The notes below the pieces were generated by a model. It saw nothing but the letters and a program-made list of their open reading frames with translations, was not told the DNA's origin and ran no database searches. From Actinomycetota bacterium (GTDB lineage Bacteria; Actinomycetota; Actinomycetes; S36-B12; UBA10799), in contig CAUJDH010000043.1 of assembly GCA_963169225.1 (NCBI GenBank), forward strand, positions 1-39,505: a DNA stretch of 39,505 nucleotides, read 5' to 3'. Positions 19,330-39,505 of the stretch are shown here, in pieces (position 1 is the first letter of the stretch; every line of letters starts with the position of its first letter). The position numbers were made by a program, and so were the translations under genes.

Positions 19330-19376
19330 CTCAGTAGTATTGCGCTATCAACTACCTGATCCAAGCTGAGGTGACA

Positions 19377-20033: not shown

Positions 20034-20226
20034 GGGAAGCTGGATCCTGACCTAGACCCACGGCAATGCCCAATAAATAGAGGGTGAGCGGTGCTGCTGG
20101 CCGGGATACATTGTGTGCGACTTCGCGAGTCACATCTAATAAGCCTTTGGCGTCACCCACTTCTTGAATACCCAGTTCGCTAGACAACTTGTTCAACCAG
20201 GCCGTCATCGGATCCTCATGAGTCAT
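19984..20226 (-). CDS. DUF6457-type small protein at the end of the nar operon
   Basis: The 80-aa product is a predicted small helical protein (M-T-A-W-L-N-K-L-S-S-E-L-G-I, then R-E-V-A-H-N-V-S-R-P-A-A-P-L-T and Y-L-L-G-I-A-V-G-L-G). The R-P-A-A-P-L-T-x-Y-L-L-G block resembles DUF6457, an actinobacterial domain found near or fused to MobA. It has a strong AAGGAGG ribosome binding site and begins 37 bp after narI on the same strand, so it is probably the last gene of narKGHJI. It overlaps mobA tail-to-tail by 50 bp. A helper role in MGD synthesis or delivery to NarG is inferred from context. Confidence 0.75.
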   Translation of the reverse strand: MTHEDPMTAWLNKLSSELGIQEVGDAKGLLDVTREVAHNVSRPAAPLTLYLLGIAVGLGQDPASLKTKVEALVEQHQVSQ

Positions 20227-20263
20227 GCCATGTCCTCCTTAGATTGGCCAGGATCGACCAACA

Positions 20264-21025
20264 CTAGCGCTTGCTCGTCTTTTGACCGGGAAGCTCGGAC
20301 TTCTCCCAACCACGAGGGGTCAAAGCTGCACCGGGCTCAGTCTCAGCGTCACGCGTTCTATAAACGATGTACGGACGCCAGAGGTAAAACACTGGCGCAC
20401 TGAACACATGCACCAATCGGGTATAAGGCCAGATTAAGAACAAAAACATAGCCGACAGAGCATGTAACTGGAATAGCAACGGAGCAGCAGCGATATCCGA
20501 GATCTGCGGATTGAAGTAGAAGATCGAGCGAAACCAGATCGACACTGACTCGCGGTAGTTATAACCGCCCTCGATCAGCTGCCAATAGACGGTGACCGAT
20601 AGTCCCAAGAAAATGACGACACCAAGAACAGCGAACATGAACTTATCGTTCGGTGTTGTCGCCAACCGGATAGCTGGTGTCTTGAGACGACGTACTGCGA
20701 GACCGACCAAGCCGATCAACATCACTAAGCCCGCCGCAAGCCCACCGATCAGGGCGAATGCGTGATAGACGTTCTCATGAATTCCAAGAGCTTCTGTCCA
20801 GGTCTGAGGAATAACGAGTCCGACAAAGTGCCCCACGATGACACCCAAAAGTCCGAAGTGGAACATCGGACTAGCCCAGCGCAAAGTGCGGCGTTCGTAC
20901 CATTCACTCGAACGCGCAGTCCAGCCAAATTTGTCGTGCTTCCAACGCCAAATATGACCGACGACGAAAGACGTAAGGCATATATAGGGGAACACCCCAA
21001 ACAAGAAAATATCGAGACCGCTCAT
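20264..21025 (-). CDS. narI: Respiratory nitrate reductase, gamma subunit (cytochrome b)
   Basis: NarI anchors NarGH to the membrane and oxidises quinol. The product is 253 aa with five hydrophobic helices. The four heme ligands sit where E. coli has them: His 56 and His 66 (M-F-H-F-G-L-L-G-V-I-V-G-H), His 188 (F-Q-L-H-A-L) and His 206 (R-L-V-H-V-F). So two b-type hemes are expected. It overlaps the end of narJ by 4 bp. Confidence 0.97.
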   Translation of the reverse strand: MSGLDIFLFGVFPYICLTSFVVGHIWRWKHDKFGWTARSSEWYERRTLRWASPMFHFGLLGVIVGHFVGLVIPQTWTEALGIHENVYHAFALIGGLAAGLVMLIGLVGLAVRRLKTPAIRLATTPNDKFMFAVLGVVIFLGLSVTVYWQLIEGGYNYRESVSIWFRSIFYFNPQISDIAAAPLLFQLHALSAMFLFLIWPYTRLVHVFSAPVFYLWRPYIVYRTRDAETEPGAALTPRGWEKSELPGQKTSKR

Positions 21026-21687
21026 GATCGTGCTCCTGCCACAGAGTCGTTGTTGTCATAAGGTTTCATGATCAACGGCAATGGATCGATACCTACGAGC
21101 TCAGTAGGCGGCCCACCCGCGATGAGCGCCTCGGCAGCCTTTCGCTGCACTGTCGTAATCTCGGGCATCGCATTGACTAGTGCTCGCACAACATAAACCT
21201 GCGGGGACTCAAAACGCTCCAGCGCTGAGATCAACACCTCCAGTCCCTGTCGATGTTCGTCAAGGAGTCCTTCTGCCGCAATAGCTGCATCACCACCATG
21301 TGCAGCCGCCTCCAACAACATGGGCAAGAAGTCGGGCAGTTCCCCCGAATCCATATCAAAACCGAGGATCTTATAAGTCTCTTGGAAGCGCCATAACGCT
21401 GCACCGCGTCGTCTAGTGTCACCATTGAGGTAGTAGCTCAAATACAGGCATGCACGTCGACGCACATCGAAAGTCCGCACATACTCAGCTTGCAAATCAA
21501 GCAATTCCCGACCTTCGGTTGCTGCAAAGAACTTGGCGAACTCACTCGATAGCTCCGGAGGTAGCTGGTTACTAGCCTCAACCAATTGGTCACGCTCAGC
21601 CTCAAACTGCTCGTCCGGGTATGCAAGCAGCCTGGAGCACAGAACGTTCAGCAACGCTCGCTTCTCTGCTGACAGGGCGGCCGTCAT
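21022..21687 (-). CDS. narJ: Nitrate reductase assembly chaperone NarJ
   Basis: NarJ is a cytoplasmic redox-enzyme maturation chaperone that holds NarG until Mo-bisMGD and FeS insertion are done. The 221-aa product has the helical TorD/NarJ fold, with L-L-A-Y-P-D-E near the start, Y-V-R-T-F-D-V-R-R-R-A-C-L-Y-L-S-Y-Y-L-N and D-F-L-P-M-L-L-E, typical of actinobacterial NarJ. It overlaps narH and narI by 4 bp each. Confidence 0.95.
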   Translation of the reverse strand: MTAALSAEKRALLNVLCSRLLAYPDEQFEAERDQLVEASNQLPPELSSEFAKFFAATEGRELLDLQAEYVRTFDVRRRACLYLSYYLNGDTRRRGAALWRFQETYKILGFDMDSGELPDFLPMLLEAAAHGGDAAIAAEGLLDEHRQGLEVLISALERFESPQVYVVRALVNAMPEITTVQRKAAEALIAGGPPTELVGIDPLPLIMKPYDNNDSVAGARS

Positions 21688-23255
21688 TGCTTGTAGTCCA
21701 AGTCTTCGTAGGACTCAGCTTCGAGCCGCTGCTTGGTGAGGTGGAAACTCTCGATAGTCACGGGGATCGGTGCGTCCCCCTGCACTCCTCGGTCACCTGG
21801 CTCCGAATCGAAACTGACCGAACAGCCAGGTAGTTCGTCCAATAGCGAGTTCGCCGCAGCTTCATAAGCCGGTGGGATCACATAGCGGTCCTCGTATTTG
21901 GCGATGGCCAGCAATCTGTGCATCGATTCGATCTCTGCCACCGTCATGTCGACGGCTTCTGCGATGGACTCATCTACCGGCTGACCCAAATTGACGTTGC
22001 GCATATGAGCACGCATCGCGGCCAGCTTGCGTAATACATCGTTTACCGGCTCAACATCACCAGCAGTAAACAGCTCGGCCAAATATTCGATCGGGATGCG
22101 CATGGCTTCAATAGCGCCAAACAGGTTGCCAATATCCTCACCATCATGGCCGGTTTCAGTCAGCGCATCGACCACTGGAGAAAGCGGCGGGATGTACCAG
22201 ACCATCGGCATGGTTCGGTACTCCGGATGCAATGGCAGTGCCACGTTGTATTTGCAAGCCAACTCGTATACCGGTGAATTTTTGGCGGCCTCCAACCAAT
22301 CAGGAGCTATGCCATCGGCCAGTGCCTGACGTTGCACTTCAGGGTCGTGTGGATCCAGCAAGATCGACTTCTGCGCATTCATCAGATCGTGTTCGTTCTC
22401 GACAGTCGCAGCCTCAGCGACACGGTCCGCGTCGTAGAGAAACAAGCCCAAGTAGCGCAGGCGACCCACACAAGTCTCGGAACACACTGTGGGCTGACCG
22501 ACCTCAAGACGTGGATAACACATGGTGCACTTCTCGGCTTTGCCCGTCGTGTGGTTGAAGTAGACCTTCTTGTAGGGACAGCCGGACACACACATGCGCC
22601 AACCTCGGCATTGGTCTTGGTCAACTAAAACGATGCCGTCTTCAGCCCGCTTGTACATGGCACCTGAAGGACATGAAGCAACACAAGCCGGGTTAAGGCA
22701 GTGTTCGCAGATTCGCGGCAAGTAGAACATGAACGATTCTTCGAACTCGAACTTGACCTTGTCGCCGATCTTCTGCACGATCGGATCCTCGTGACCGGTC
22801 TCAGTCGTACCACCAAGGTCATCGTCCCAGTTGGCGGACCATTGAATTGACATGTCCTTACCGGTCACCAACGACTTGGGCCTGGCAACCGGGAAATCAT
22901 CCGAACCAGCCGGCGCACTCACCAAGCTGTCGTAGTCGTAGGTCCAAGGTTCGTAGTAATCCTCCATGTCCGGAAGATTGGGATTCGCGAAGATCGATAG
23001 TAACTTCTTGGCGCGCCCACCTGCCTTGAGACGCAGCCGTCCACGGCGGTCCAGCTTCCAACCGCCCTTCCACTTCTCTTGATCTTCATAGCGACGAGGG
23101 AAACCCAGACCCGGCCTGGTCTCTACGTTGTTGAACCACACATACTCAACACCGGTTCGGTTGGTCCAAGTTTGCTTACACGTCACCGAACATGTGTGAC
23201 ACCCGATGCATTTGTCGAGGTTCATCACCATGCCCATTTGTGCCATGACTCTCAT
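21684..23255 (-). CDS. narH: Respiratory nitrate reductase, beta subunit
   Basis: NarH passes electrons from NarI hemes to NarG through four FeS clusters. The product is 523 aa. The first cluster motif is C16-x2-C19-x2-C22-x3-C26 (K-C-I-G-C-H-T-C-S-V-T-C), spaced as in E. coli NarH. C-E-H-C...C...C-P and a third group, C-R-G-W-R-M-C-V-S-G-C-P, follow. In that third group Trp replaces one Cys, the normal NarH arrangement for a 3Fe-4S cluster. It starts at ATG 23255, sharing one base with the narG stop (TAATG). Confidence 0.97.
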   Translation of the reverse strand: MRVMAQMGMVMNLDKCIGCHTCSVTCKQTWTNRTGVEYVWFNNVETRPGLGFPRRYEDQEKWKGGWKLDRRGRLRLKAGGRAKKLLSIFANPNLPDMEDYYEPWTYDYDSLVSAPAGSDDFPVARPKSLVTGKDMSIQWSANWDDDLGGTTETGHEDPIVQKIGDKVKFEFEESFMFYLPRICEHCLNPACVASCPSGAMYKRAEDGIVLVDQDQCRGWRMCVSGCPYKKVYFNHTTGKAEKCTMCYPRLEVGQPTVCSETCVGRLRYLGLFLYDADRVAEAATVENEHDLMNAQKSILLDPHDPEVQRQALADGIAPDWLEAAKNSPVYELACKYNVALPLHPEYRTMPMVWYIPPLSPVVDALTETGHDGEDIGNLFGAIEAMRIPIEYLAELFTAGDVEPVNDVLRKLAAMRAHMRNVNLGQPVDESIAEAVDMTVAEIESMHRLLAIAKYEDRYVIPPAYEAAANSLLDELPGCSVSFDSEPGDRGVQGDAPIPVTIESFHLTKQRLEAESYEDLDYKQ

Positions 23256-26200
23256 TAGAATTCAACCTCCTGCGAACGACGGCGAATAACTGTGATCTCG
23301 TCCCGTTGGTTACCCGTCGGACCGATGTAGTTGAACGCATAGGACAGCTGCGCGTAGCCACCGATGAAGTGCGAAGGCTTCATCAAGACTCGAGTCAACG
23401 AATTGTGAATGCCACCGCGCTTGCCACTCTTCTCAGCCTTAGGAACGTTGATCAAGCGATCCTTCGCGTGATACATGTACACGGTTCCCTCAGGCATACG
23501 GTGCGAGACGATTGCACGCGCAACCACTACACCGTTGCGGTTGCTTGACTCGATCCAATCGTTGTCTTTGATACCTGCCTTGGCGGCGTCTTCTTTGGAC
23601 ATCCAAATCTCAGGGCCACCGCGACTAAGCGCAAGCATGAACAAGTTGTCCTGATACTCAGAGTGGATCGACCACTTTGAGTGTGGTGTCAGGTAGCGCA
23701 CGGTCACCTCGACGTTGTCACTCTCGCCTGTTCCTGGGGAACCGAAGATGCGACGCATCTGCAGTGGCGGACGGTAGGCCGGCAAGTTCTCACCGAGCTC
23801 GGCCATCCAATCATGATCGAGAAAGTAGTGCTGGCGACCGGTCAGAGTGTGCCAAGGCTTGAGCCGCTCGACGTTAATGGTGAACGGTGAGTACCGCCTG
23901 CCACCGTGTTCACTGCCAGACCATTCGTGCGAGGTGATCACCGGTTGCGGCCTGGACTGAGTATCAGCAAACCGAATCTGCTTGCCCTCATGATCTCGCG
24001 CCAAATCAGCGAGCTCGTGACCTGTGCGCTTCTCCAGGAACTCGAATCCCTCGACCGCCACGCGCCCGTTCGTCGTACCGGACAGCGCCAAGATCGTCTC
24101 GCAGGCTTGTTCGGCAGTCATCAGGAGTGGGCGGCCGTCAGCCACACCGCCTTGAACTGTGCCGTTGATGTCCTTGAGTCGTTCGACCTCTTGAACCGGT
24201 TTGACCGTGATGCCCTTAACTTGCGTACCGAGCTTCTCAACGTTGGGACCGAGTGCCGTGAGCTTGGCCGCGACTGCTCCATAGTCACGCTCAACAACCA
24301 CCATGTTCGGCATAGTGACGCCTGGCTTCGGCTCACACTCGCCTTCCTTCCAGTCCAGTGCAACCCCGCCAGGCTGAGCTGTTTCGCCAGGAGTGTCATG
24401 CTGCAGTGGTACAGCAACCAGATCTTTACGCACTCCAAGGTGATGCTTGGCGTGACGACTAAACACCTTGGCCAGTTCGACAAAAGTGTCGTAGTCAGAC
24501 TTGGTCTCCCACGGCGGCTTGATAGCCGGGGTGAAAGCATGAATAAACGGGTGCATATCCGTCGTTGATAGGTCTTCCTTCTCGTACCAAGTAGCTGCCG
24601 GCAGCAGCACATCCGAGAAGATTCCCGTCGAGGTCATCCGGAAGTCAAGCGAAACCAATAAGTCCAGCTTGCCGATCGGTGCATCGTCGCGCCATTTGAT
24701 CGTCTTAGAGCGAAGCTCTGGAGGAGTCTCGTCGGCGGCCAATTGATTGTTGGTCCCCAGCAGATGCTTGAGGAAGTACTCGTTGCCCTTGCTGGAAGAT
24801 CCGAGCAGATTCGCGCGCCAAACGGTCAATACTCGTGGCCAGTTCTCTTCTGCATCTGGATCGTCGATAGCAAACTCAAGCTCGCCACTCTTGAGTTGAT
24901 CAACGACATATGCTGGCACTTCTTGACCGGCGGCTTCCGCTTGATCACAAATATCTAACGGGTTCCGGTTGAATTGCGGGTAGCTCGGTGTCCATCCCAT
25001 GCGCACGGCCTTTGCCAAGCAATCACCAATGGACATGTCCTTGAACAAACCCTGCCCAAGTGGACTGGCAAGCTCGTCAGCTGACAGATTGTCGTAACGG
25101 AACTGGTCAGTATGCGTGTACCAGTAGGAGGTTCCCGCCATTTGGCGTGGTGGCCTCGCCCAGTCGGCGGCACCAGCTAGCTGGCCCCAACCGGTTACCG
25201 GACGACACTTTTCTTGACCCACGTAGTGCGCCCAACCACCACCGTTGACACCTTGGCATCCAGTCAAGGTGACGAGCGCGATGATCGCTCGGTAAGTCTC
25301 ATCCGAGTGGAACCAGTGGTTGGTACCGGCTCCCAAAGTGATCATGGATCGCCCACCGGACTTCTCGGCATTGTCGGCAAACTCACGGGCTACTTTGATG
25401 ATCGACTTGGCCGGGACAGAAGTGATTTCCTCTTGCCAAGCTGGTGTATATGGCTGACTAACATCCTCGTACGACTCGGGCCAATCACCGGGCAGACCGT
25501 CGCGTTTGACGCCATAAGTTGCGAGTAAAAGGTCGTACACGGTGGTGACCAGTTTGCCCGCGACCTCGGTGACAGGGACACCGCGTCGCATAGTGCTGCC
25601 ACCCTCGTTCTCACCGTCATTGATATCGAAACGAGGCATGTTGATCAATGCTGTGGCGTCACCTTTGATCCCCAATTGCGGATCGATTTCACCCAAATCG
25701 AGGTTCCATTTGCCAACTCCGCTGTCAGTGAAGCGGAAGCCCAGCGAACCGTTAGGAACCGCAGGTTGGCCAGTCGTTTCATCCAAGACAACGGTCTTGA
25801 ATTTGGAGCCTTCGGAGTCATCGCCGAGGTCGGCGGCAGTGACGAACTTGTCCGGAACAAACATCCCCGGTTCAGTCTCGCGCAATGTAACGAGGTTTGG
25901 TAAATCCGAGTACTGCTTCGAGTATTCGACAAAACGAGGAACCTGACGGTCGAGGTAGAACTCCTTGAGAATCACATGACCCATCGCCATTGCCATAGCG
26001 CCGTCGGTACCAGGTGCTGCTGGTAACCACGTGTCAGCGAACTTGGTGTTGTCGGCATAGTCCGGGCTGACAACGACAATCTTGGAACCGTTATAACGTG
26101 ACTCTGTCATGAAGTGCGCGTCAGGCGTACGTGTCATGGGGATGTTCGACCCCCACATGATCATGTAGCTCGAGTTCCACCAGTCAGCGCTCTCGGGAAC

Positions 26201-26959
26201 ATCCGTCTGGTCGCCCCAGATCTGCGGCGAAGCTACGGGGAGATCGGCGTACCAGTCATAGAACGAGATCATGGAGCCGCCGAGCAGACTCGTGTACCGC
26301 GCTCCAATGGCATGCGAAGCAATAGACATTGCCGGGATAGGAGAAAAACCACCGATACGATCCGGGCCGTATTTTTTGATGGCGTTAACCTGTGCGGCCG
26401 CCACGATTTCAAGTGACTCTTCCCACGAAGTTCGTACTAGACCACCGAGACCACGGACGGATTGGTAGTGCCGACGCTTCTGTGGGTCCTCAGAGATCTC
26501 AGCAAATGCGAGTACTGGGTCACCCAACCTTGCTTTGGCCTCGCGGTACATAGCAAGGAGCTCACTACGGGCGTAGGGGTACCGCACTCGAGTCGGCGAG
26601 TAGGTGTACCAACTGAATGAAGCACCACGTGGACATCCACGTGGTTCGTATTCGGGCGAATCCGGACCGACAGACGGGTAGTCAGTCTCTTGGGTCTCCC
26701 AGGTGATGATTCCATCTTTGACATACACCTTCCAAGAACACGAACCCGTACAGTTCACGCCGTGGGTGGAGCGCACTACTTTGTCGTGACTCCAACGCTC
26801 ACGATAGAAGTTGTCGGCCTGTCGCCCACCATGTTTGTAGATATAACGGGTGTCGCCACTCACCTCTTGACGACTAACAAACTTGCGAGTCTTGAGCAAC
26901 GCCTCGGTGAGGCTACCGTCTACCTCGCCTGTTCCGCGATCTGCAGTGGTTTGGCTCAT
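23255..26959 (-). CDS. narG: Respiratory nitrate reductase, alpha (molybdenum) subunit
   Basis: NarG reduces nitrate to nitrite at a Mo-bisMGD centre. The product is 1234 aa, the family size. The FS0 cluster ligands His 66, Cys 70 and Cys 74 are visible (T-H-G-V-N-C-T-G-S-C), and S-F-Y-D-W-Y-A-D-L-P contains the Asp that coordinates molybdenum. There is no twin-arginine signal at the N-terminus, so the active site faces the cytoplasm. It overlaps narK by 4 bp and narH by 1 bp. Confidence 0.98.
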   Translation of the reverse strand: MSQTTADRGTGEVDGSLTEALLKTRKFVSRQEVSGDTRYIYKHGGRQADNFYRERWSHDKVVRSTHGVNCTGSCSWKVYVKDGIITWETQETDYPSVGPDSPEYEPRGCPRGASFSWYTYSPTRVRYPYARSELLAMYREAKARLGDPVLAFAEISEDPQKRRHYQSVRGLGGLVRTSWEESLEIVAAAQVNAIKKYGPDRIGGFSPIPAMSIASHAIGARYTSLLGGSMISFYDWYADLPVASPQIWGDQTDVPESADWWNSSYMIMWGSNIPMTRTPDAHFMTESRYNGSKIVVVSPDYADNTKFADTWLPAAPGTDGAMAMAMGHVILKEFYLDRQVPRFVEYSKQYSDLPNLVTLRETEPGMFVPDKFVTAADLGDDSEGSKFKTVVLDETTGQPAVPNGSLGFRFTDSGVGKWNLDLGEIDPQLGIKGDATALINMPRFDINDGENEGGSTMRRGVPVTEVAGKLVTTVYDLLLATYGVKRDGLPGDWPESYEDVSQPYTPAWQEEITSVPAKSIIKVAREFADNAEKSGGRSMITLGAGTNHWFHSDETYRAIIALVTLTGCQGVNGGGWAHYVGQEKCRPVTGWGQLAGAADWARPPRQMAGTSYWYTHTDQFRYDNLSADELASPLGQGLFKDMSIGDCLAKAVRMGWTPSYPQFNRNPLDICDQAEAAGQEVPAYVVDQLKSGELEFAIDDPDAEENWPRVLTVWRANLLGSSSKGNEYFLKHLLGTNNQLAADETPPELRSKTIKWRDDAPIGKLDLLVSLDFRMTSTGIFSDVLLPAATWYEKEDLSTTDMHPFIHAFTPAIKPPWETKSDYDTFVELAKVFSRHAKHHLGVRKDLVAVPLQHDTPGETAQPGGVALDWKEGECEPKPGVTMPNMVVVERDYGAVAAKLTALGPNVEKLGTQVKGITVKPVQEVERLKDINGTVQGGVADGRPLLMTAEQACETILALSGTTNGRVAVEGFEFLEKRTGHELADLARDHEGKQIRFADTQSRPQPVITSHEWSGSEHGGRRYSPFTINVERLKPWHTLTGRQHYFLDHDWMAELGENLPAYRPPLQMRRIFGSPGTGESDNVEVTVRYLTPHSKWSIHSEYQDNLFMLALSRGGPEIWMSKEDAAKAGIKDNDWIESSNRNGVVVARAIVSHRMPEGTVYMYHAKDRLINVPKAEKSGKRGGIHNSLTRVLMKPSHFIGGYAQLSYAFNYIGPTGNQRDEITVIRRRSQEVEF

Positions 26960-28191
26960 GCTTTCACCGCCTCCCCGGTTGTAGCTACGTACACGGATCG
27001 AATCTTGGTCAGAAGGAACAGCAACACAAGACCTGCCACTATGGCCAACAAAACAAAACCGATCGAATAGCTACCGGTTGCACCGTAGATCGCGCCCATC
27101 AGCAACGGTGGCACGAATCCACCTAGGCCGCCGGCTGCACCAACCACACCAGTTACCGAACCCACCATCTCGGCAGGGGCAACTTTGGCAACGAGCGCGA
27201 AGGTAGCTCCAGATCCGGCGCCAAGTGCAGCTGCCATCACCAAGAAGCAGATAGTCGACAGTGGCATAAGCGGAGGAATGGTGGCTTGACCGAGAGCGCC
27301 TGCAACCACCGCGATAAGACAGGCAGTAAGCACCACGATAGGACCGAGCTTGTCAGATAGGAATCCGCCGACAGGTCTCATGATCACCGCGAGGATGACG
27401 AACCCGGCCATACGGTTTGCCGCATCTGCAGCGGTCAAAGAGTAGTCCGTCTGCAAATAAGTCGGAAGGTAAACCGAAAAGGCCACATAACCACCGAACA
27501 AAGTTGCGTACAGCGCGCAGGCTTGCCAAGTGGTGCCGAGCTTAACTGTTTTGCCAAGCCTTTCGCCCAGTGTCGAGGTTGGGGCGACTCGACCCGGAGC
27601 ATCACGCAGCAGCAGCCATGCGACTACAGCATAAATAGCTAATGCGATGGCACAGATGATGAATGGGAAAGCGCTGCCACCTGCCTTCACTAGATGGACG
27701 GTCGTCAACGCTGAGATTGCGGTACCGCCCATACCCACACCGAAGATGCCGATCGCCGTGCCACGCTTTTCCGGCGGATACCAGTTGTTGACGTAGGGAA
27801 CACCGACTGCGAAAACGGTGCCACCGATGCCCAAGAAAAAGCCACCTATGATCAAAGATGCGTAGGAGTCTTGACCAAGAAACCCGAGGAACAAAACGGG
27901 GATTATGGTGAGCACGGAGACCACCGGGAACATAATTCGGCCACCGTACTTGTCGGTGAGTGCACCGACCGGAATACGCCCTAGCGAACCGACGATCACT
28001 GGCACTGCTACGAAGGCCGATACCTGGAACGCGGAGAGACTAAGCTTCTCGGCAAATTGAGAACCCAGTGGACTCAAAAGCGCCCAGGCCCAGAAGTTGA
28101 CCGCAAAACCAATGGTGGCCAAAGTCAACATCAGGGCAGGACTGCCACCTTTAGCGCTCTTCTGCTCTGTCACTGAATTCGCTGAAGCCAT
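26956..28191 (-). CDS. narK: Nitrate/nitrite transporter, NarK family (MFS)
   Basis: NarK imports nitrate and/or exports nitrite. The 411-aa product has about 12 membrane segments, the MFS loop motif G-A-L-T-D-K-Y-G-G-R after TM2 and the glycine-rich nitrate-signature segments (G-I-F-G-V-G-M-G-G-T-A and G-A-G-S-G-A-T-F-A-L-V). GGAGAGG precedes the ATG. It is the first gene of narKGHJI. With a cytoplasmic NarG and no nitrite reductase nearby, a nitrate/nitrite exchange role is likely but not proven. Confidence 0.95.
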   Translation of the reverse strand: MASANSVTEQKSAKGGSPALMLTLATIGFAVNFWAWALLSPLGSQFAEKLSLSAFQVSAFVAVPVIVGSLGRIPVGALTDKYGGRIMFPVVSVLTIIPVLFLGFLGQDSYASLIIGGFFLGIGGTVFAVGVPYVNNWYPPEKRGTAIGIFGVGMGGTAISALTTVHLVKAGGSAFPFIICAIALAIYAVVAWLLLRDAPGRVAPTSTLGERLGKTVKLGTTWQACALYATLFGGYVAFSVYLPTYLQTDYSLTAADAANRMAGFVILAVIMRPVGGFLSDKLGPIVVLTACLIAVVAGALGQATIPPLMPLSTICFLVMAAALGAGSGATFALVAKVAPAEMVGSVTGVVGAAGGLGGFVPPLLMGAIYGATGSYSIGFVLLAIVAGLVLLFLLTKIRSVYVATTGEAVKA

Positions 28192-28213
28192 CTCTGACTA
28201 CCTCTCCGTGGGT

Positions 28214-28236
28214 GGATGCTATTTGGGCGTGCATCC
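28214..28236 (-). promoter_or_regulatory. Inverted repeat in the narK leader
   Basis: GGATGC and GCATCC are perfect 6-bp arms around an 11-nt loop, lying 23 nt upstream of the narK start. It may form a small hairpin in the narK 5' untranslated region or be part of an operator. Nothing else supports either role. Confidence 0.35.
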
Positions 28237-28240
28237 GATC

Positions 28241-28255
28241 ACAGCTTCTAGCTGT
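28241..28255. promoter_or_regulatory. 15-bp palindrome between narK and moaA (candidate operator)
   Basis: ACAGCT-TCT-AGCTGT is a perfect palindrome with a 3-bp centre in the 154-bp divergent spacer between narK (-) and moaA (+). It is placed to affect both operons. It does not match the FNR consensus (TTGAT-N4-ATCAA). The regulator is unknown; control by oxygen, nitrate or nitrogen is plausible from the neighbours. Confidence 0.5.
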
Positions 28256-28345
28256 AACCTAGTCGATTGCTATTCTGTTTTAGTACTGACATGTCCGTAA
28301 TAAACAAACCCTATCCTCTCAATCAATCAGGCGGGCGGTGAGACC

Positions 28346-29350
28346 ATGTCAATAGAAAGAAAACAGCTCGCTGACCACTACGGACGAGTAGCCACTGACC
28401 TACGTGTATCGGTCACGGACCGCTGCAATTTGCGCTGCACGTACTGCATGCCTGAGCAAGGACTCGACTGGCTGGCAAAAGATTCGATCCTGACCGATGA
28501 AGAGATCGTGCGCTTGATCGCTATCGGCGTTCGAGACCTTGGAGTTACGGATGTTCGTTTTACCGGAGGCGAACCTCTGATCCGCCCGAGCATCGTGAAG
28601 CTCGTAGAACAGGTGGCACAGCTCCCACAAGCCCCTCGGGTGGCTATGACGACCAACGGGATTGGCCTTGAGCTGGTGGCCCCAAGCCTGGCAGAAGCTG
28701 GCCTAAATCGCATCAATGTTTCACTAGACACGCTACGGGCTGACCGGTTCTCGGCACTCACCAAACGAGACCGACTCGCGGATGTACTCGCTGGCCTGGA
28801 GGCTGCTAAACAAGCGGGACTCAACCCCGTCAAAATCAACAGTGTGCTCATGCGCGGCATCAACGAAGATGAAGCTCCAGATTTGCTCCGGTTCGCGATC
28901 GCTAATGATTATCAATTGCGGTTTATCGAACAGATGCCGCTGGATCCGATGCATCAATGGTCGCGCGAAAATATGGTGCCTGCCGACGAGATTCTTGATT
29001 CACTTCGCCAACATTTTGCGCTAACTCCAGCCGATGATGAGCGAGGAGCAGCTCCGGCGGAACTCTGGAATGTCGATGGCTCCAATCACTCAGTTGGAGT
29101 AATCGCGTCGGTCACCCAACCGTTCTGTGGGGCATGCGACAGAACACGTATTACCGCAGACGGCATGGTTCGCAACTGTCTGTTTGCCAGACGCGAAGGA
29201 GATCTCAAGACCCTCATGCGCGCAGGTGCGACTGACGACCAGATCGCTGAGGCTTGGCTCAACGAGATGAGCGCGAAGGCGCCTAGCCACGGAATCGATC
29301 AGCCAAATTTCTTACAGCCGCAACGACCGATGTCAGCTATCGGCGGCTAG
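28346..29350 (+). CDS. moaA: GTP 3',8-cyclase MoaA
   Basis: MoaA is the radical-SAM enzyme that starts molybdopterin synthesis from GTP. The product is 334 aa. The SAM cluster motif is C27-x3-C31-x2-C34 (D-R-C-N-L-R-C-T-Y-C), followed by F-T-G-G-E-P-L-I-R. The second cluster is in the C-terminal third (F-C-G-A-C-D-R-T-R and a later N-C-L-F). It ends in the conserved G-G needed for activity. GGTGAG lies before ATG 28346. moaD follows after 7 bp. Confidence 0.97.
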   Translation: MSIERKQLADHYGRVATDLRVSVTDRCNLRCTYCMPEQGLDWLAKDSILTDEEIVRLIAIGVRDLGVTDVRFTGGEPLIRPSIVKLVEQVAQLPQAPRVAMTTNGIGLELVAPSLAEAGLNRINVSLDTLRADRFSALTKRDRLADVLAGLEAAKQAGLNPVKINSVLMRGINEDEAPDLLRFAIANDYQLRFIEQMPLDPMHQWSRENMVPADEILDSLRQHFALTPADDERGAAPAELWNVDGSNHSVGVIASVTQPFCGACDRTRITADGMVRNCLFARREGDLKTLMRAGATDDQIAEAWLNEMSAKAPSHGIDQPNFLQPQRPMSAIGG

Positions 29351-29357
29351 GTATTTT

Positions 29358-29606
29358 ATGAGTAACCAAAACTTCACTGCTCGCTACTTCGGTTCGGCAA
29401 GTGCGGCAGCGGTAAATCAAGAAACCCGCACCGAGACAACTGTCGCCGAATTCAAACGAGCTGCTGGATCGCACCACGGCCCCGAGTTGGTCAAAATTCT
29501 TGAGGTCGCCTCGATCTTGGTAAATGGTCAGGCCACCCAAAACGATGATCTTGTGATTCCGATAGGGGCAACAATCGACGTGTTACCACCTTTCGCCGGA
29601 GGCTAA
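29358..29606 (+). CDS. moaD: Molybdopterin synthase sulfur-carrier subunit MoaD
   Basis: MoaD donates sulfur, as a C-terminal thiocarboxylate, to precursor Z within the MoaD-MoaE complex. The 82-aa product has the ubiquitin-like pattern, including I-L-x-x-A-S-I-L-V-N-G-Q and D-V-L-P-P-F-A-G-G at the end; the terminal Gly-Gly is intact. It lacks a Shine-Dalgarno sequence and starts 7 bp after moaA, so it is probably translated by coupling. The activating enzyme (MoeB/MoeZ type) is not in this window. Confidence 0.94.
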   Translation: MSNQNFTARYFGSASAAAVNQETRTETTVAEFKRAAGSHHGPELVKILEVASILVNGQATQNDDLVIPIGATIDVLPPFAGG

Positions 29607-29635
29607 CCTTCACGAGATGCGACAACTCGAAATGT

Positions 29636-30079
29636 TCAAGGGCTATTGACCCACTCAGAAGCACCGTCGGCAAAGTCTTGCTTCTTCCAAATAGGCAACT
29701 GCGCTTTGACCACCTCGACCAAATTGGCAATCATCTCGAACGCCACTCCTCTATGTGCTGATGAAACCGCAGCCACTAACGCAATATCCCCCACTTCTAG
29801 GTTGCCGATACGGTGACTGATCGCAATGCGACCAACACCTGGCGCCCGAGAGGCCGCCAAAGCAAGTTCGTGCAATACGTCATCAGCCGAAGGATGCGAG
29901 GAGTATTCGAGTCGATCAACCTTTCGTCCGCCATCGTGATTCCGCACCACGCCAAGGAACGTTGCCACTGCGCCGAACTCGCCGTCTGAAACGAATTCGA
30001 CGTGATCGTCCAACCCGATTGGCTTGTCAGACACATTGGTTCTGATCCGTTCCTGTTCTGGTTCAGTTGTGGCGTTCAT
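29636..30079 (-). CDS. moaE: Molybdopterin synthase catalytic subunit MoaE
   Basis: MoaE adds the dithiolene sulfurs to precursor Z. The product shows G-A-V-A-T-F-L-G-V-V-R-N-H-D-G-G, then L-E-Y-S-S-H-P-S-A and the catalytic Lys region A-Q-L-P-I-W-K-K-Q. GGAGGTGACC places the start at ATG 30079 (147 aa) rather than the GTG at 30085 in the ORF track. It overlaps mog by 17 bp and is the last gene of moaC-mog-moaE, converging on moaD with 29 bp between. Confidence 0.95.
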   Translation of the reverse strand: MNATTEPEQERIRTNVSDKPIGLDDHVEFVSDGEFGAVATFLGVVRNHDGGRKVDRLEYSSHPSADDVLHELALAASRAPGVGRIAISHRIGNLEVGDIALVAAVSSAHRGVAFEMIANLVEVVKAQLPIWKKQDFADGASEWVNSP

Positions 30080-30590
30080 GGTCACCTCCGCCTATTTGAT
30101 CAATAGCGTGAGGCAAAATCGAAGCCAACAATTGAACACTCTCAATCGCTGCCTTCTTCGAACCAGGAACATTGATGATCAAAGTGTTCTCGGCAATGCC
30201 AGCAATTCCGCGCGATAGCGCAGCATTCGGCACGGAATCCCAGACTTTCACCCGAAGAAAGTCGGCGATTCCGGGAACCTCGCGATCGACTACCTGAGCG
30301 GTGAATTCAGGGGTCTGATCTTGCGGCGTGAGTCCGGTGCCACCGCAGGTGATAACCACGTCGATTCCTTGAACTACCGCCTGTTTGAGTGTTGTTTTGA
30401 CTGATTCACCATCGGGGACAACCTGCACTTGATCAACAACGAATCCGACTCTCGCCAATTCCGCTGCTGCAGCTGGGCCAGCGGTGTCCTCATAAGTCCC
30501 CTCAGCAACGCGAGTAGAGACCGTTATCACTCGAGCTGTCCGACCATCAGCCGAAGCCTGACTCGCAAGCTTCGACGACTCAATACTCAC
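30063..30590 (-). CDS. mog: Molybdopterin adenylyltransferase (Mog/MoaB family)
   Basis: This enzyme adenylylates molybdopterin before MoeA inserts molybdenum. V-I-T-C-G-G-T-G-L-T-P-Q-D followed by T-P-E is the MPT-binding signature, and S-R-G-I-A-G-I then I-I-N-V-P-G-S-K-K-A complete the fold. I prefer GTG 30590, whose GTGA overlaps the moaC stop by 4 bp after an AGGA, over the TTG 30608 in the track. The product is then 175 aa. MoaB and Mog are hard to tell apart by sequence; only one member is present. Confidence 0.92.
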   Translation of the reverse strand: MSIESSKLASQASADGRTARVITVSTRVAEGTYEDTAGPAAAAELARVGFVVDQVQVVPDGESVKTTLKQAVVQGIDVVITCGGTGLTPQDQTPEFTAQVVDREVPGIADFLRVKVWDSVPNAALSRGIAGIAENTLIINVPGSKKAAIESVQLLASILPHAIDQIGGGDHERHN

Positions 30591-31027
30591 GCTCGAGTCC
30601 TTTGCCAATCGCCGGTCTTACCGCCCTTTTTCTCGAGTACTCGAACATTTTCTATGGTGGCTTCGGGATCAGTGCCCTTGATCATGTCAATGACAGTAAG
30701 TCCAGCAGCGCAAACCGCGGTGAGCGCCTCCATCTCGACCCCTGTTCGATCAGCTGTCTTGACGGCCACGGCGATTTCTACTTTGTCGTCCTTGGTCCAT
30801 AGTTCGACTTTGACTCCGCCAATAGCAATCGGATGGCACAACGGGATGATGTCTGGGGTGTGCTTGACCGCCATGATCGCAGCGATTCGTGCAGCCGCCA
30901 AAACGTCACCTTTTGCGGTTTGGCCGGAGTCGATTTGTTCGATCACTTGGGCGGTAGTCAGTACTGAACCTTGCGCGATTGCACTTCGAGCGGACTTGTC
31001 TTTGCCAGTTACATCAACCATCTGCAT
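30587..31027 (-). CDS. moaC: Cyclic pyranopterin monophosphate synthase MoaC
   Basis: MoaC converts the MoaA product to cPMP. The 146-aa protein has M-V-D-V-T-G-K, I-I-P-L-C-H-P-I-A-I, G-V-E-M-E-A-L-T-A-V and I-D-M-I-K-G, which include the active-site His, Glu, Asp and Lys. The usual first 10 or so residues (L-T-H-I-D-type segment) are absent: an in-frame stop lies four codons upstream of ATG 31027. An AGGA precedes the ATG. It starts the moaC-mog-moaE operon. Confidence 0.96.
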   Translation of the reverse strand: MQMVDVTGKDKSARSAIAQGSVLTTAQVIEQIDSGQTAKGDVLAAARIAAIMAVKHTPDIIPLCHPIAIGGVKVELWTKDDKVEIAVAVKTADRTGVEMEALTAVCAAGLTVIDMIKGTDPEATIENVRVLEKKGGKTGDWQRTRA

Positions 31028-34175: not shown

Positions 34176-35981
34176 ATGAACAACCACATGAGAACCACGA
34201 TCGGAACATTTCTCACCCGAGCCACTGGTGATGGCTTGGTGTCGTGGGTTCCCTTCGTTTGGATCACTTTCCTTGGTGCACTTGACGGACTTCTATCGAG
34301 ATACTCCGAAAACAGCATTCATCCGGTAGCCCTCGCAGGCGTTATTTCGTTTAGTTCGCTTGTCATGTTTGCGTGCCTTTACGCCTGGTGGTTTCTGGTG
34401 TTGAGACACCTCAAGGGGCGCCCTCGCATCGTGGTCACACTGATCTCTTTTGGGGTCGTCGGACTCATTCGCGGACTTGTCATTGCTGAACTCATCAGCT
34501 GGGTTGTGCTGCGACACGGAGATGCTGCGTCTTTTCCAAACTTTGGAATGAGAACCGCTTTCTACGTCGTGGTCATGATCCTCGCCTTGTCATTGGGTAC
34601 CTATATCGTTCAAGTCTCGCGGGACAACCGCAGCAAGGTCAGCCAGGTAGCGAGTGAACAAGAAAGTGTTCAACTTGCCATTGATTCGGTAGAGGATTCC
34701 ATCACCGAGGAGTACAAACTTGTTGGTGTTGAGATCCAAGAAGTACTGAGCTCGGAGATCAGAGAGTTCGATCAACTAAGCCCTGAACAAGCAGCGCAGG
34801 AGACTCAGCGCGTGATCTCAGAAGTTGTGCGTCCGCTGAATGATGAACTTGCCTACGACCGCCCGACTGTGACACTGCCGCAGGTCAACCCCAACGACTA
34901 CCGCGTCACATGGAGCTCGTTGTGGAGCAGAGAACGAGTTGAGACCAATATTGCTCCGCTAACAACTGTGGCGGTGTACGCCCTCTACATCTATTCGTCG
35001 ATCACTATGATCTACAACTACTACAAACCACTGGCCGTATTGCTCACTCTTCCTGCGCTTTGGATTGGCCTGTGGTGCGCTCGGTTTTTGTTCCGCAAGT
35101 ATTGCCCAAGGGTTGGCCTGCTCTGGCGTTTAGTGTTGTCGACCTTGCTGCTGTCGATTGTGATTGCGCCTTCCGCCCTCATATTCGAGTTGATCCTTAA
35201 ATACCCAGATACGGGTGGGCCTGCATTTGTCTATTGGGTCACAGCAATCACCATTGTTTGGCTAGTTGCTATAGCGAACACACAGCTTCGAAGCATGCGA
35301 CAAGCGGATCGTTCCCTCGAAGAAATCGACAAGCAACTAGTTTGGTGCCTGGTTCGAGGACGTATGACACAACTACATGAGGCTGAGAGAATTGCTCGCG
35401 TTCTGCATGGCCCTATCCAATCTGAATTGATCGCCTACAGACATCAACTAAATAGTTCAACCAGGGAAACCGAACAGCCTGCCAATTACGCGAACGGTGT
35501 TGATCAACAAACTCAAGCTCTCGTATCCACTCTCACCAAACTCTTGGATACGAACACGGTAGTAGCGCAGTCAGAATTCGATCTTCGAAAAAGGGTTACT
35601 TCTGTCTCAACCGTGTGGACAGGGATAGCCGACGTAACGATTGAGGCCAACGAAACTACTCTGATCGCACTGGAACAAGATGTCATTGCATCGGACACTC
35701 TACTGAGAATTGTTGAAGAATCGGTTTCAAATTTGATCCGAACCTCCGGCGCAACAACGATCATGATCAACATCCGGCTCGATAGCGATCAAACGATTGT
35801 CGTCGAATTGAATGCAGACGTCCAGCTAGACAAATCCACAACCAGTGAAAAATTAGTTCAAGATCAACTTCGCGATTGCACCATCAACTGGACAAACACC
35901 CAGAAGGGAAACTGCACCACCTTCACTTTGACCCTGCCCGTCGCGCCCAACGCCATCACGCCAAACAGTCTTGGGTCGTAG
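34176..35981 (+). CDS. Polytopic sensor with degenerate histidine-kinase module (kinase A)
   Basis: The 601-aa product has two membrane blocks: four segments in residues about 20-145, a soluble Glu/Gln-rich, coiled-coil-like stretch (about 150-250), then a second block of roughly four (about 263-372). A C-terminal kinase-like part follows. His 411 lies in I-A-R-V-L-H-G-P-I-Q, resembling the H-box of NarX/DesK-type kinases but with Gly after His instead of Asp/Glu. An N-box Asn is present (Asn 519, E-E-S-V-S-N), but the G1 Asp is replaced by Ala (about residue 547, aligned to kinase B). It is probably a pseudokinase or phosphatase-biased partner. ATG 34188 is an alternative start. Convergent with the response regulator. 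Confidence 0.8.
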   Translation: MNNHMRTTIGTFLTRATGDGLVSWVPFVWITFLGALDGLLSRYSENSIHPVALAGVISFSSLVMFACLYAWWFLVLRHLKGRPRIVVTLISFGVVGLIRGLVIAELISWVVLRHGDAASFPNFGMRTAFYVVVMILALSLGTYIVQVSRDNRSKVSQVASEQESVQLAIDSVEDSITEEYKLVGVEIQEVLSSEIREFDQLSPEQAAQETQRVISEVVRPLNDELAYDRPTVTLPQVNPNDYRVTWSSLWSRERVETNIAPLTTVAVYALYIYSSITMIYNYYKPLAVLLTLPALWIGLWCARFLFRKYCPRVGLLWRLVLSTLLLSIVIAPSALIFELILKYPDTGGPAFVYWVTAITIVWLVAIANTQLRSMRQADRSLEEIDKQLVWCLVRGRMTQLHEAERIARVLHGPIQSELIAYRHQLNSSTRETEQPANYANGVDQQTQALVSTLTKLLDTNTVVAQSEFDLRKRVTSVSTVWTGIADVTIEANETTLIALEQDVIASDTLLRIVEESVSNLIRTSGATTIMINIRLDSDQTIVVELNADVQLDKSTTSEKLVQDQLRDCTINWTNTQKGNCTTFTLTLPVAPNAITPNSLGS

Positions 35982-36006: not shown

Positions 36007-36672
36007 TCACTCACTACTTGCGCCCTCACCCCGACTCGGTAAGCCGAAGGCATCAACGTAAAGACGCACAGCTTCGGTGCGCTGATTCAAATCGCCCCGC
36101 TCATCGAGTTTCAGCTTGCGATAGATCATTCCCACCATCTTCTCGACTGCGCTGACTGAGCGACTGCTGATTCGCGCGATCTCCGGAACCTTGTATCCCT
36201 GCGCCAACATACGCAAGGTACGAAGCTGTCCCGAGGTAAGCAAGGCAAGTTCATTCGAAACAGCTAGTGCGTGACGAATACCACTGCCTTCGATTGCTCT
36301 GTCGAGGGAATCAATCAGGATGTTCGAATCGGTTACCGTCCGCTTGTCGACTACAGGAACGTTCGGAGGAAAAGATCCATCAACGAGCCCTGCCGCAGCC
36401 AAGTCCGGAAAATTGGTGAGGACAACACATGCGACTTCTGGAAATCGATCAGACAAAATATGGACAAGATCAACACCAGAAACACTTTGGCCTAGATCAA
36501 GATCGACAATTGCAACGTCAATCGCGACCTCCTCCAAAATCGCCAATGACTCTTGAGCATTCGACGCCAATTCCACCGAAAAACCTTTGGACGTGAGAAT
36601 TTCACCCACCAAGGTTCGGATCACAGGCTCGTCATCGACGACGAGTACATACCTAGAGAATGCGGCGTTCAT
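36007..36672 (-). CDS. NarL/LuxR-type response regulator
   Basis: The 221-aa product has a receiver domain (residues 1 to about 125) with acidic pocket V-V-D-D-E (Asp 13-Asp 14), phosphoacceptor Asp 57 in A-I-V-D-L-D-L, a switch Thr in V-V-L-T-N and the Lys in V-V-D-K-R. The C-terminal GerE/LuxR helix-turn-helix is seen in L-T-S-G-Q-L-R-T-L-R-M-L-A-Q-G followed by S-A-V-E-K-M-V. All catalytic residues are intact. It lies between the two kinase-like genes: its stop is 25 bp from the stop of kinase A, and it is divergent from kinase B. Its targets are unknown; the repeats next to it are candidates. Confidence 0.93.
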   Translation of the reverse strand: MNAAFSRYVLVVDDEPVIRTLVGEILTSKGFSVELASNAQESLAILEEVAIDVAIVDLDLGQSVSGVDLVHILSDRFPEVACVVLTNFPDLAAAGLVDGSFPPNVPVVDKRTVTDSNILIDSLDRAIEGSGIRHALAVSNELALLTSGQLRTLRMLAQGYKVPEIARISSRSVSAVEKMVGMIYRKLKLDERGDLNQRTEAVRLYVDAFGLPSRGEGASSE

Positions 36673-36684: not shown

Positions 36685-36751
36685 CCTGACTAATTGGCAT
36701 TCGAGGCCCGGCTTTGTAATTCAACCATCGAATCGGTGGTTTTCCAGAAGG

Positions 36752-36849
36752 GGGCAGGAAGCCCAAAAGTCGTTAGCCAACCATTCTCAACCATTGGAGG
36801 GCAGGAAGTAGTCAAAAACAACCAAAGCCGACCATCCTGCCACTGGAGG
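36752..36849. repeat. Imperfect 47-49 bp direct repeats in the regulator/kinase-B spacer
   Basis: GGGCAGGAAG occurs at 36752 and again at 36799 (47 bp apart). CCATTGGAGG at 36791 recurs as CCACTGGAGG at 36840 (49 bp apart). Between the anchors the units share partial similarity (AAAA-rich, then A-C-C-A-T-T/C-C-T). GGCAGGA (36800) and TCCTGCC (36835) also form a 7-bp inverted pair. The spacing is about 4.5 helical turns. The set lies between two divergent genes and may be binding sites for the response regulator. Confidence 0.5.
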
Positions 36850-36863
36850 AGTGCATCCGTAAG

Positions 36864-36968
36864 ATGGAACTCAACAACTCACCCTACGAACGGTATAGCT
36901 TTGCCCCAGCCTCCACCGGACTCTCCTACTCGATCAGGATTCAAGCGAGCTTTGCGACTGAGTACTAG
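36864..36968 (+). CDS. Possible 34-aa upstream ORF or true 5' end of kinase B
   Basis: An ATG preceded by GGAGGA (13 nt away) opens a 34-codon frame, M-E-L-N-N-S-P-Y-E-R-Y-S-F-A, ending at TAG 36968, 8 nt before the first in-frame ATG of kinase B (36976). It is not in the kinase frame and overlaps the kinase's upstream coding extension. It could be a coupling leader peptide. Alternatively, a one-base error or +1 shift at CCCC (36904-36907) would join it to the kinase. It is the only good ribosome binding site in this spacer. Confidence 0.4.
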   Translation: MELNNSPYERYSFAPASTGLSYSIRIQASFATEY

Positions 36969-38679
36969 TGATGCGATGCTCTCCGGTGCACTCGTTGCAT
37001 GGATCGCGGTTTTTGGTACAGGCATCACGTCAATTCCTTATCTGGGAGATTTTGGAACCTGGTTCAAAGCGGCTCTTACGGGCACGCTGTCCATCATTTT
37101 GATGTTCGTCGCACTGTACTTAACGTGGTTCTTGGTACTTCGACGCATCAAGCAATCCAAGTGGCGAGTGGCGGCAACTTTGCTTGCCTATCTATGTGTA
37201 AGCGCGCTCCGCGGGCTGATCTTGAGCTGGCTACTCATCGCCTTAACGGGAGAAAGAATCCCAACGGACGCGACCCTGTATCGAGTGTCTGCAAACACCA
37301 CTTGGATGTTCATGTTTCTGGTGTTGGGTGTCTATGTCGTGGCGATCACCCGGCAACAGCGCGCCAAACTCGCAGAAGCGATAGCAAAACGAAGCCAGGT
37401 CGAGGCGGTACTCGATTCGATGCGGATCAGCAATCTTGATTTCCAGCTAAAAACCCTGGAGCAGGTACATGACAAAATCAATCAAGAAATAGTCAACCGC
37501 CAAGCAGGTCCCCAACTGTCATCACGCACGCTAGAAACGCTGGCATCTGAAGTCATATCTCCAGTGAGCCACGAACTTGCCAGACGCACATCCCACTACG
37601 ACATCCCCCAAATCAGCAGCGACGATTACGTTGTTCCGCTGCGTCGATTCCTGCTACAGATCAACCTGCCACGGTTCATCCAACCGTCTTTCTCGGTAGT
37701 CATCTTGATCATTTCGTGGGCGGGAACTGGTCTCAGCGTTTTTGGCTTCCCGGACTTCTTGCAGATGTATCTCGTGTTTATGCCGATCTTATTCGCGCTT
37801 CTTCTTGGCATGAAGGCCTTCTTCAACAGGTTCTTGTCTCTGCCAAACCTGCTCGCTCTCTTCCTGGCCTTGCTATTCACGATTGTGTCCACATTATGTG
37901 CGCTATCGATAACAGCAAAGGTCTTTCCTCAATTAGGAAGTCGTCTCGACGTCCAAGTAGCGATTGTTATCCAGGCAACCGAATTCATCTTATTTGTGGC
38001 TACTGCTTTTGCTGTTCGCCGTCAGGGCGATATCAGCGATCGAAACTTCCGCACGTACTCGCGCAAGCTGGACTGGCTGGAGGCGCGTGCCCGGCTGGAA
38101 TCGTGGAGTCTCGACAACAGATTGGCACAAGTCTTGCATGGGCCAGCACAGGCTGAGCTCTATGCGACCGGTGAAACTTGGAAGGATTTGCCCGAATCCG
38201 AGGTAGATGTCGACGAATATCTGGACAACTATTCCGACTCATTCCGACAGCAGTTGCTGAGCGTCTTGGGTCCGAACAGTAACAACAATCTCGAGGGTGT
38301 TGTCAGGTCGACGATCAATTTTTGGAGCCACACCTGCGCCATCACATTTGATCAAGATACCGCCGCGGCGAACCTACTCAAACACGATGCCGCTGCCTCT
38401 GACGTTCTCGAGGGCATAATCCAAGAGACTGTCTCCAACACAGTGGTTCACGGTCGCGCGAACGACATTCACATCCGCTTGACTTCGCCACAAGATGATC
38501 TTGTGGCACTCACGGTCAGCGACAACGGCCAAACTGATCTTCGAGCCGAGCCGCAAGACTCACAAGGCGCAGCCCAACTACAGGCTTGCACCCTCGACTG
38601 GAAGCACACTTGCAGTCACGGTCAGAACACTCTGACTGCCTCGATCCCGATAGAGCTAACGAACCCGCATTTTGAATGA
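36901..38679 (+). CDS. Polytopic sensor histidine kinase-like protein (kinase B)
   Basis: A paralogue of kinase A with the same plan: four membrane segments, a coiled-coil-like linker, about four more, then a kinase-like C-terminus. The H-box is L-A-Q-V-L-H-G-P-A-Q (His 413 if TTG 36901 is the start). The N-box is E-T-V-S-N-T-V-V-H-G (Asn 513) and the G1 Asp is kept (V-S-D-N-G-Q, Asp 541), so ATP binding looks possible. A classic G2 box is not visible. Both paralogues end with a C-T-x-x-W element near the last 25 residues. The start is uncertain: TTG 36694 (track), TTG 36901 or ATG 36976; similarity to kinase A begins before 36976. The last 24 bp overlap the TIG gene. Confidence 0.8.
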   Translation: MPQPPPDSPTRSGFKRALRLSTSDAMLSGALVAWIAVFGTGITSIPYLGDFGTWFKAALTGTLSIILMFVALYLTWFLVLRRIKQSKWRVAATLLAYLCVSALRGLILSWLLIALTGERIPTDATLYRVSANTTWMFMFLVLGVYVVAITRQQRAKLAEAIAKRSQVEAVLDSMRISNLDFQLKTLEQVHDKINQEIVNRQAGPQLSSRTLETLASEVISPVSHELARRTSHYDIPQISSDDYVVPLRRFLLQINLPRFIQPSFSVVILIISWAGTGLSVFGFPDFLQMYLVFMPILFALLLGMKAFFNRFLSLPNLLALFLALLFTIVSTLCALSITAKVFPQLGSRLDVQVAIVIQATEFILFVATAFAVRRQGDISDRNFRTYSRKLDWLEARARLESWSLDNRLAQVLHGPAQAELYATGETWKDLPESEVDVDEYLDNYSDSFRQQLLSVLGPNSNNNLEGVVRSTINFWSHTCAITFDQDTAAANLLKHDAAASDVLEGIIQETVSNTVVHGRANDIHIRLTSPQDDLVALTVSDNGQTDLRAEPQDSQGAAQLQACTLDWKHTCSHGQNTLTASIPIELTNPHFE

Positions 38680-39505
38680 GCTGGAAGCTATCGGACCTTT
38701 GCCTTTGGCGTTAGCTGCTCGAACCTTGACCAGGAACGTAAGCGTTCCCATGTACTCCCCGCGACTGCGTAGGCCTAGTGCACGAGTCAACTGTTTACGC
38801 GTGAGCGTGTAGCTGGTCTTGGACCTAGGTAGGTTGCGCAAGATGATCACCTTGCTCCGGCCCCGCAGTTGAACAGTCAGAATGTACTTGGTGACCGGGC
38901 GCTTAACCGAAGTGTCCTTCGGCTTCGACCATGACACCTTGAACTTGCTCGCTGTCGGCTTGCCCTTCACCTTCATCTTCGCAGGCTTCTGGTTAGGCTT
39001 GACCGTATCGCTTACCGGCTCGGCATAGGTGAACGCGTTCTTTACCGTCACCGTTCCGTGGTCTGTATTCGTGACCACTTGGTCCGCTTTGCCAACCGAA
39101 CCTGAAGGTGCCTTACAAGTGATCTTGGCACTTGAGACCACTGTCACTGGTGCACATGCCTTGCCACCAATCATGACCGTGACACCGCCAGCGAAGTTCG
39201 AACCGTTGATAGTGACTGTTTCACCTCCAGCTGTTGAACCCGTCTTGGGTGACACACCCGACACCGCGGGCGCGGTGACATAAGTGAACGCATCTGCGAG
39301 AGTGATGGTGCCATTATCAATATTGGTCACGGTCACGTCATACGTGCCATCCGTTTGCGCCGGTGTCTTACAAGTGATCGTGGTGCCACCGTCAGCGACC
39401 TGAACATCAGTACATTCTTGATCACCGATCATCACCACAGCACCATCACCAAAATCGGTGCCAGTGATCGTGATGGTGGACCCACCAGTGTTGTTACCGC
39501 CATCA
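38656..39505 (-). CDS. TIG/IPT-repeat and FN3-like surface protein, C-terminal part (5' cut by window edge)
   Basis: The frame stays open past the track's start (39438) to the right edge, so the gene is incomplete at its 5' end. Two Ig-like TIG/IPT repeats are visible, each with a G-S-T/G-G-E-T-V/I-T-I-x-G-x-x-F-G/A pattern, V-M-I-G-x-x-x-C, I-T-C-K and A-F-T-Y at its end. They are followed by a fibronectin-III-like domain (F-K-V-S-W-S-K-P-K then Y-I-L-T-V) and a basic C-terminus. No LPXTG motif or C-terminal membrane anchor is seen. It is probably secreted or surface-bound. Its 3' end overlaps kinase B by 24 bp. Confidence 0.85.
   Translation of the reverse strand, partial: DGGNNTGGSTITITGTDFGDGAVVMIGDQECTDVQVADGGTTITCKTPAQTDGTYDVTVTNIDNGTITLADAFTYVTAPAVSGVSPKTGSTAGGETVTINGSNFAGGVTVMIGGKACAPVTVVSSAKITCKAPSGSVGKADQVVTNTDHGTVTVKNAFTYAEPVSDTVKPNQKPAKMKVKGKPTASKFKVSWSKPKDTSVKRPVTKYILTVQLRGRSKVIILRNLPRSKTSYTLTRKQLTRALGLRSRGEYMGTLTFLVKVRAANAKGKGPIASSSFKMRVR

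Follow-up and report, generated by a model that had tools for sequence, protein, structure and literature searches.

A probable pseudokinase among duplicated DesK-like sensor histidine kinases of an actinobacterial genome

Kinase A, a sensor histidine kinase homologue of 601 amino acids (34176–35981, forward strand; translation and structure model), is, judged from its sequence, very probably a pseudokinase that has no useful ATP binding and no autokinase activity by itself. The gene lies in a window of 39,505 bases, the whole stretch of DNA that was analyzed, which is contig C43 of a 1.9-Mb genome in 109 contigs. The pseudokinase reading is based on a selective loss of the ATP site that is unmatched among 84 members of the kinase family. 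Two marks of a pseudo-histidine kinase were found: the nucleotide-binding motifs are lost and, in the predicted model, the kinase fold is otherwise kept.

To our knowledge, few pseudokinases of two-component systems have been well studied. Pseudokinases are already known in bacteria (PhyT and DivL), and kinase A is probably a clear new case within an uncharacterized kinase family. The degenerate kinase A can be compared with its intact sister and with about 80 relatives from the same family, a natural contrast suited to asking where constraint persists in a sensor kinase after ATP binding is lost.

Organization of the Locus

Kinase A adjoins a response regulator (36007–36672, reverse strand) that consists of a receiver and a LuxR-type DNA-binding domain and in which the phosphorylation residues D13, D14, D57, T86, and K110 are all present. 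A second family member, kinase B, is encoded on the other side of the regulator (36694–38679, forward strand, with a putative start; the TTG at 36901 was used in the analysis). Kinase A is convergent with the regulator and lies outside its operon, kinase B is divergent from it, and the two kinase genes are separated by 0.7 kb. In nearly all of the approximately 80 loci that were read, a kinase of this family adjoins a single regulator, which it mostly follows immediately downstream and to which it is sometimes convergent (L164–L166). Two of these loci carry two regulator–kinase pairs; a single regulator between two kinases occurs in the window alone. Scans for promoters and terminators gave results at chance level.

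The upstream part of the window (18079–31027) encodes a molybdopterin oxidoreductase of 1,234 residues that resembles nitrate reductases, together with MoeA-, MoaA-, and MoaC-type genes for the molybdenum cofactor. Kinase B is adjoined by a gene for a TIG/fn3 protein (38656–39504, reverse strand), the C-terminal domain of which is shared with a 1,938-residue Fn3-repeat protein on contig C101 (locus L140, 4094–9913, forward strand) that is located between two regulator–kinase pairs. A link of these sensor systems to surface proteins is possible in this genome; a family-wide tie to large Fn3/TIG surface proteins was rejected, as the association was found at two loci of the same genome and was absent from most of 19 wider loci of relatives. 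Locus L048 contains a receiver frame (1492–1887) that belongs to the same family of regulators; it lies behind an IS3-type transposase and is truncated by the end of the contig, so the genome contains at least one further copy of the system.

Selective Loss of the ATP Site

An earlier note on this DNA had claimed that the G1 Asp is replaced by Ala in kinase A and that the phospho-acceptor His and the N-box Asn remain, and each of these readings holds. The H-box (H411-G-P-I-Q415, 35406–35420, forward strand; L410-H411-G412 in the translation) contains the phospho-acceptor His and the conserved Gln, with H411, G412, P413, and Q415 all retained, and N519 is present in the N-box (35730–35747, forward strand). 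In the G1 box (35814–35822, forward strand), A547-D548-V549 replaces D-N/D-G, and A547 (within N546-A547-D548-V549) is located opposite Asp610 of kinase B. The earlier note had overlooked further losses in the ATP site: the G1 Gly is replaced by V549, the His-Gly that the family has in the N-box by T523-S524, and the G2 glycine pair by K559 and V561 (K559-L-V561 instead of G-x-G, 35850–35858, forward strand).

The assignment of A547 to the G1 Asp column is supported by a gap-free alignment from the N-box to the G2 box with the closest paralogue (L002, LIDNGRSD) and by a family profile that aligns this column to the DNG/DDG boxes of the solved structures of DevS, DosT, VraS, and DesK. In the AlphaFold models, the strand that precedes G1 ends at A547 in kinase A (residues 540–547) and at D541 in kinase B (residues 534–541; D541 of the model is D610 of the long frame). 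The neighboring D548 was rejected as a shifted G1 Asp, since it occupies the second position of the motif, where the family has Asp (40/84) or Asn (38/84), and the models agree. A local frameshift or sequencing artefact was likewise rejected: the coding frame of kinase A is open and collinear with the closest paralogue, and the other two frames carry stops and no motif.

The degree of degeneration was assessed against a set of 84 kinases drawn from the window, the rest of the genome, and further genomes of the same order; the named relatives of the family are mostly found in actinobacterial metagenome-assembled genomes. Conservation is high in the H-box (His in 84/84, Gly at H+1 in 82/84, Gln at H+4 in 83/84), the N-box (His in 79/84, Gly in 77/84), and at the G2 glycines (first 80/84, second 82/84). 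The G1 Asp is absent from 18 out of 84 members, mostly replaced by Asn or Ser, and its change is therefore weak evidence by itself; it was rejected as a sole criterion and does not reliably mark a pseudokinase within this family.

Six nucleotide-site residues were scored (the N-box Asn and His, the G1 Asp and Gly, and the two G2 glycines). Kinase A retains one of them, the N-box Asn, which is the lowest number among the 84 kinases; one other member retains three, four members retain four, 19 retain five, and 59 out of 84 retain all six. At 24 columns conserved in the family, kinase A has lost 6 out of 9 within the ATP site versus 2 out of 15 elsewhere (hypergeometric P = about 0.013 for at least six ATP-site losses given eight losses among 24), and the 13 positions retained outside the ATP site include all of those in the DHp. 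The other 83 members have at most two losses among the same nine ATP-site columns. The claim that kinase A cannot bind ATP well is thereby strongly supported at the sequence level, with five out of six nucleotide-site residues and six out of nine ATP-site columns lost.

Kinase B retains the N-box and an intact G1 box (D610-N-G, 38521–38529, forward strand; family alignment and AlphaFold model), and its H-box His is H482 (38137–38139, forward strand; translation). Its G2 box reads S623-Q-G625 instead of G-x-G (38560–38568, forward strand; family alignment), with the first Gly changed and the second present; the first G2 Gly is missing in kinase A, kinase B, and only two others among the 84 members. 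Four further kinases (L159, L160, L161, and L207) have lost both the G1 Asp and the G1 Gly but retain G2 and an adjoining regulator, and may represent additional, milder pseudokinases.

Predicted Fold and Family Identity

The AlphaFold model of kinase A, based on 28 sequences, has a mean pLDDT of 84 and a value of about 91 in the CA core. Its helices fit two membrane blocks, each of four spans, on either side of a long cytoplasmic helical hairpin, followed by the DHp (35373–35546, forward strand; model helices 348–431 and 435–457, with matches to the DesK fold) and the degenerate CA domain, which is complete in the model despite the motif losses. The best matches among solved folds are the DesK DHp-CA and then the ATP-binding domains of DosS and VraS, and kinases A and B share the same predicted fold. 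As far as prediction can say, kinase A belongs to the DesK-like sensor kinases but has an emptied ATP site, and it is not a misfolded remnant. A Pfam match of kinase A to pAdhesive_8 was below the cut-off and was taken as spurious.

The DesK-like DHp-CA fold predicted for kinase A is that of the HisKA_3 kinases, but the HisKA_3 DxxxQ motif (an acidic residue after the His and Gln at H+5) is absent across the family, kinases A and B included, and the Pfam searches gave no HisKA_3 or DHp match and only weak matches to HATPase_c. The kinases with the H-G-P-x-Q motif appear to constitute an undescribed family of DesK-like histidine kinases.

Phylogeny of the Kinases and the Regulator

In the phylogenetic tree, the sister of kinase A is a kinase on contig C101 (37% identity, support 100/99) in which the ATP site is intact, with all six nucleotide-site residues, and which is accompanied by a regulator of its own; the sister of kinase B is a kinase of another genus (support 100/98). 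The family is duplicated within the genome, and kinases A and B are 22–26% identical overall, with 27% for the DHp region. The branch of the CA core is longer in kinase A (1.20) than in its sister (0.67), and the use of bases at the codon positions in kinase A is like that of its paralogues. No orthologue of kinase A was found in a single-protein scan of genome contigs (the genus consists of one genome), and searches of the order and of a sample of the class identified, outside its own genome, only relatives with at most about 26–29% identity. Tree tests of the regulator reject neither a descent together with kinase A nor a descent together with kinase B, and mirror-tree correlations did not separate true from wrong kinase–regulator pairs.

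Potential Role of Kinase A and Alternative Explanations

Kinase A would represent a duplicated sensor histidine kinase of the DesK-like family, the CA domain of which folds without useful ATP binding, so that it would not autophosphorylate as a homodimer. It retains the membrane sensor and an intact DHp with the phospho-acceptor His, and would dock through this DHp on the adjoining regulator and alter the phosphorylation state of the regulator in response to its own signal, whether by holding the regulator, by taking phosphate from it or by passing phosphate to it; kinase B would supply the phosphate from ATP. This explanation as a whole, with a pseudokinase acting on the adjoining regulator and kinase B as the phosphate source, is favored with modest confidence. 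The convergent position of kinase A outside the operon of the regulator weighs against it, as do the tree and mirror-tree comparisons, which tie neither kinase to the regulator by descent. An action of the DHp on the adjoining regulator would be the most likely use of kinase A, although we regard this part as evenly poised, and the target and direction of the effect are guessed from the neighborhood and from the precedents of PhyT and DivL. More tentatively, the locus might encode a three-protein switch: a paralogous active kinase would serve the regulator, and kinase A, a duplicated sensor deprived of its ATP-driven activity, would add a second input to this regulator by accepting phosphate, by relaying it or by sequestering the regulator. 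The family concerned, with its HGPxQ phospho-acceptor motif and two membrane blocks, is apparently undescribed.

The earlier note had proposed that kinase A might pair with kinase B and be phosphorylated by it. In such a heterodimer, the CA domain of kinase B would phosphorylate H411 of kinase A or its own His, and the sensor of kinase A would tune the pair. The short distance between the genes, the shared predicted fold, the His and DHp residues retained in kinase A, and the G1 D-N-G, N-box, and single G2 Gly of kinase B are compatible with this proposal, but beyond the neighborhood it finds no support: the two kinases are not sisters and are only 27% identical in the very region that would have to pair. 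As the nearest relative of kinase A is the C101 kinase, a heterodimer of these two is at least as plausible as one with kinase B, and the A–B heterodimer is considered unlikely.

Since no orthologue was found and the CA core branch is longer, kinase A could instead be a young gene en route to loss, that is, a functionless decaying duplicate with a frame that is open by chance. The faster change of its CA core compared with its sister, its occurrence in a single genome, and the duplication of the family within that genome would fit such a decay. The 601 codons without a stop, the base use at codon positions, and the conserved positions outside the ATP site, 13 out of 15 of which are retained including the whole DHp set, argue against it and make decay improbable.

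A dedicated phosphatase of the adjoining regulator would be a special case of the favored explanation; the earlier note had also raised a phosphatase role. Q415 is located one turn after the His, where the attacking water is positioned by a Gln in HisKA_3 or a Thr/Asn in HisKA kinases (PMC5231405, PMC3510030), and judged by sequence the Gln at H+4 may serve in this role despite the missing DxxxQ motif, which was defined in NarX (PMC3510030, PMC5231405). However, the acidic residue of that motif is a Gly in 82 out of 84 family members, the Gln is at H+4 compared with H+5 in DesK, and PhyP, long proposed to be a phosphatase, was inactive as a phosphatase in vitro and turned out to be a phosphotransferase (PMC5898713); this special case is about as improbable as decay.

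Least probable is an active kinase A with an unusual mode of ATP binding. The 17 other members without the G1 Asp mostly have an adjoining regulator, so that the family may be able to dispense with this Asp, and the unorthodox RcsD of Salmonella, which lacks the conserved kinase-domain His, is reported to autophosphorylate (PMC3762810). However, the relatives without the G1 Asp still have the G2 glycines and, in most cases, the N-box His, whereas in kinase A all of these residues are missing at once.

Comparison with Known Systems

The DesK/HisKA_3 kinases, which also include VraS, DevS, and DosT, provide the nearest solved fold and the nearest CA sequences to the family and, as in the window, have a LuxR-type regulator as partner. 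They differ in carrying H-D-x-x-x-Q where the family has H-G-P-x-Q and in having a Pfam DHp match, which the family lacks; kinase A additionally lacks the ATP site.

The pseudokinase PhyT (formerly PhyP) of Sphingomonas melonis has a degenerate ATPase domain and a working His, is encoded at the locus of its regulator, and both passes phosphate through its His and restrains the regulator (PMC5898713). Kinase A resembles PhyT in the membrane sensor, the phospho-acceptor His, the degenerate ATPase domain, and the gene position at a regulator locus. The HRxxN motif of PhyT is absent from the DHp of kinase A, which has HGPIQ, and PhyT, from an alphaproteobacterium, differs from the actinobacterial kinase A with its DesK-like fold and the paralogous kinase next door.

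DivL of Caulobacter crescentus binds ATP weakly and senses a phosphorylated regulator (PMC4211667). It is similar to kinase A as proposed here in that a kinase-derived protein with poor ATP binding uses its regulator-docking surface, but DivL has a Tyr at the site of the phospho-acceptor His, whereas kinase A retains H411. The enterobacterial RcsD is, likewise, an unorthodox kinase-like protein that stands beside a true kinase on one regulator; it has an HPt domain but no conserved His in its kinase domain (PMC3762810), whereas kinase A retains the His and has no HPt.
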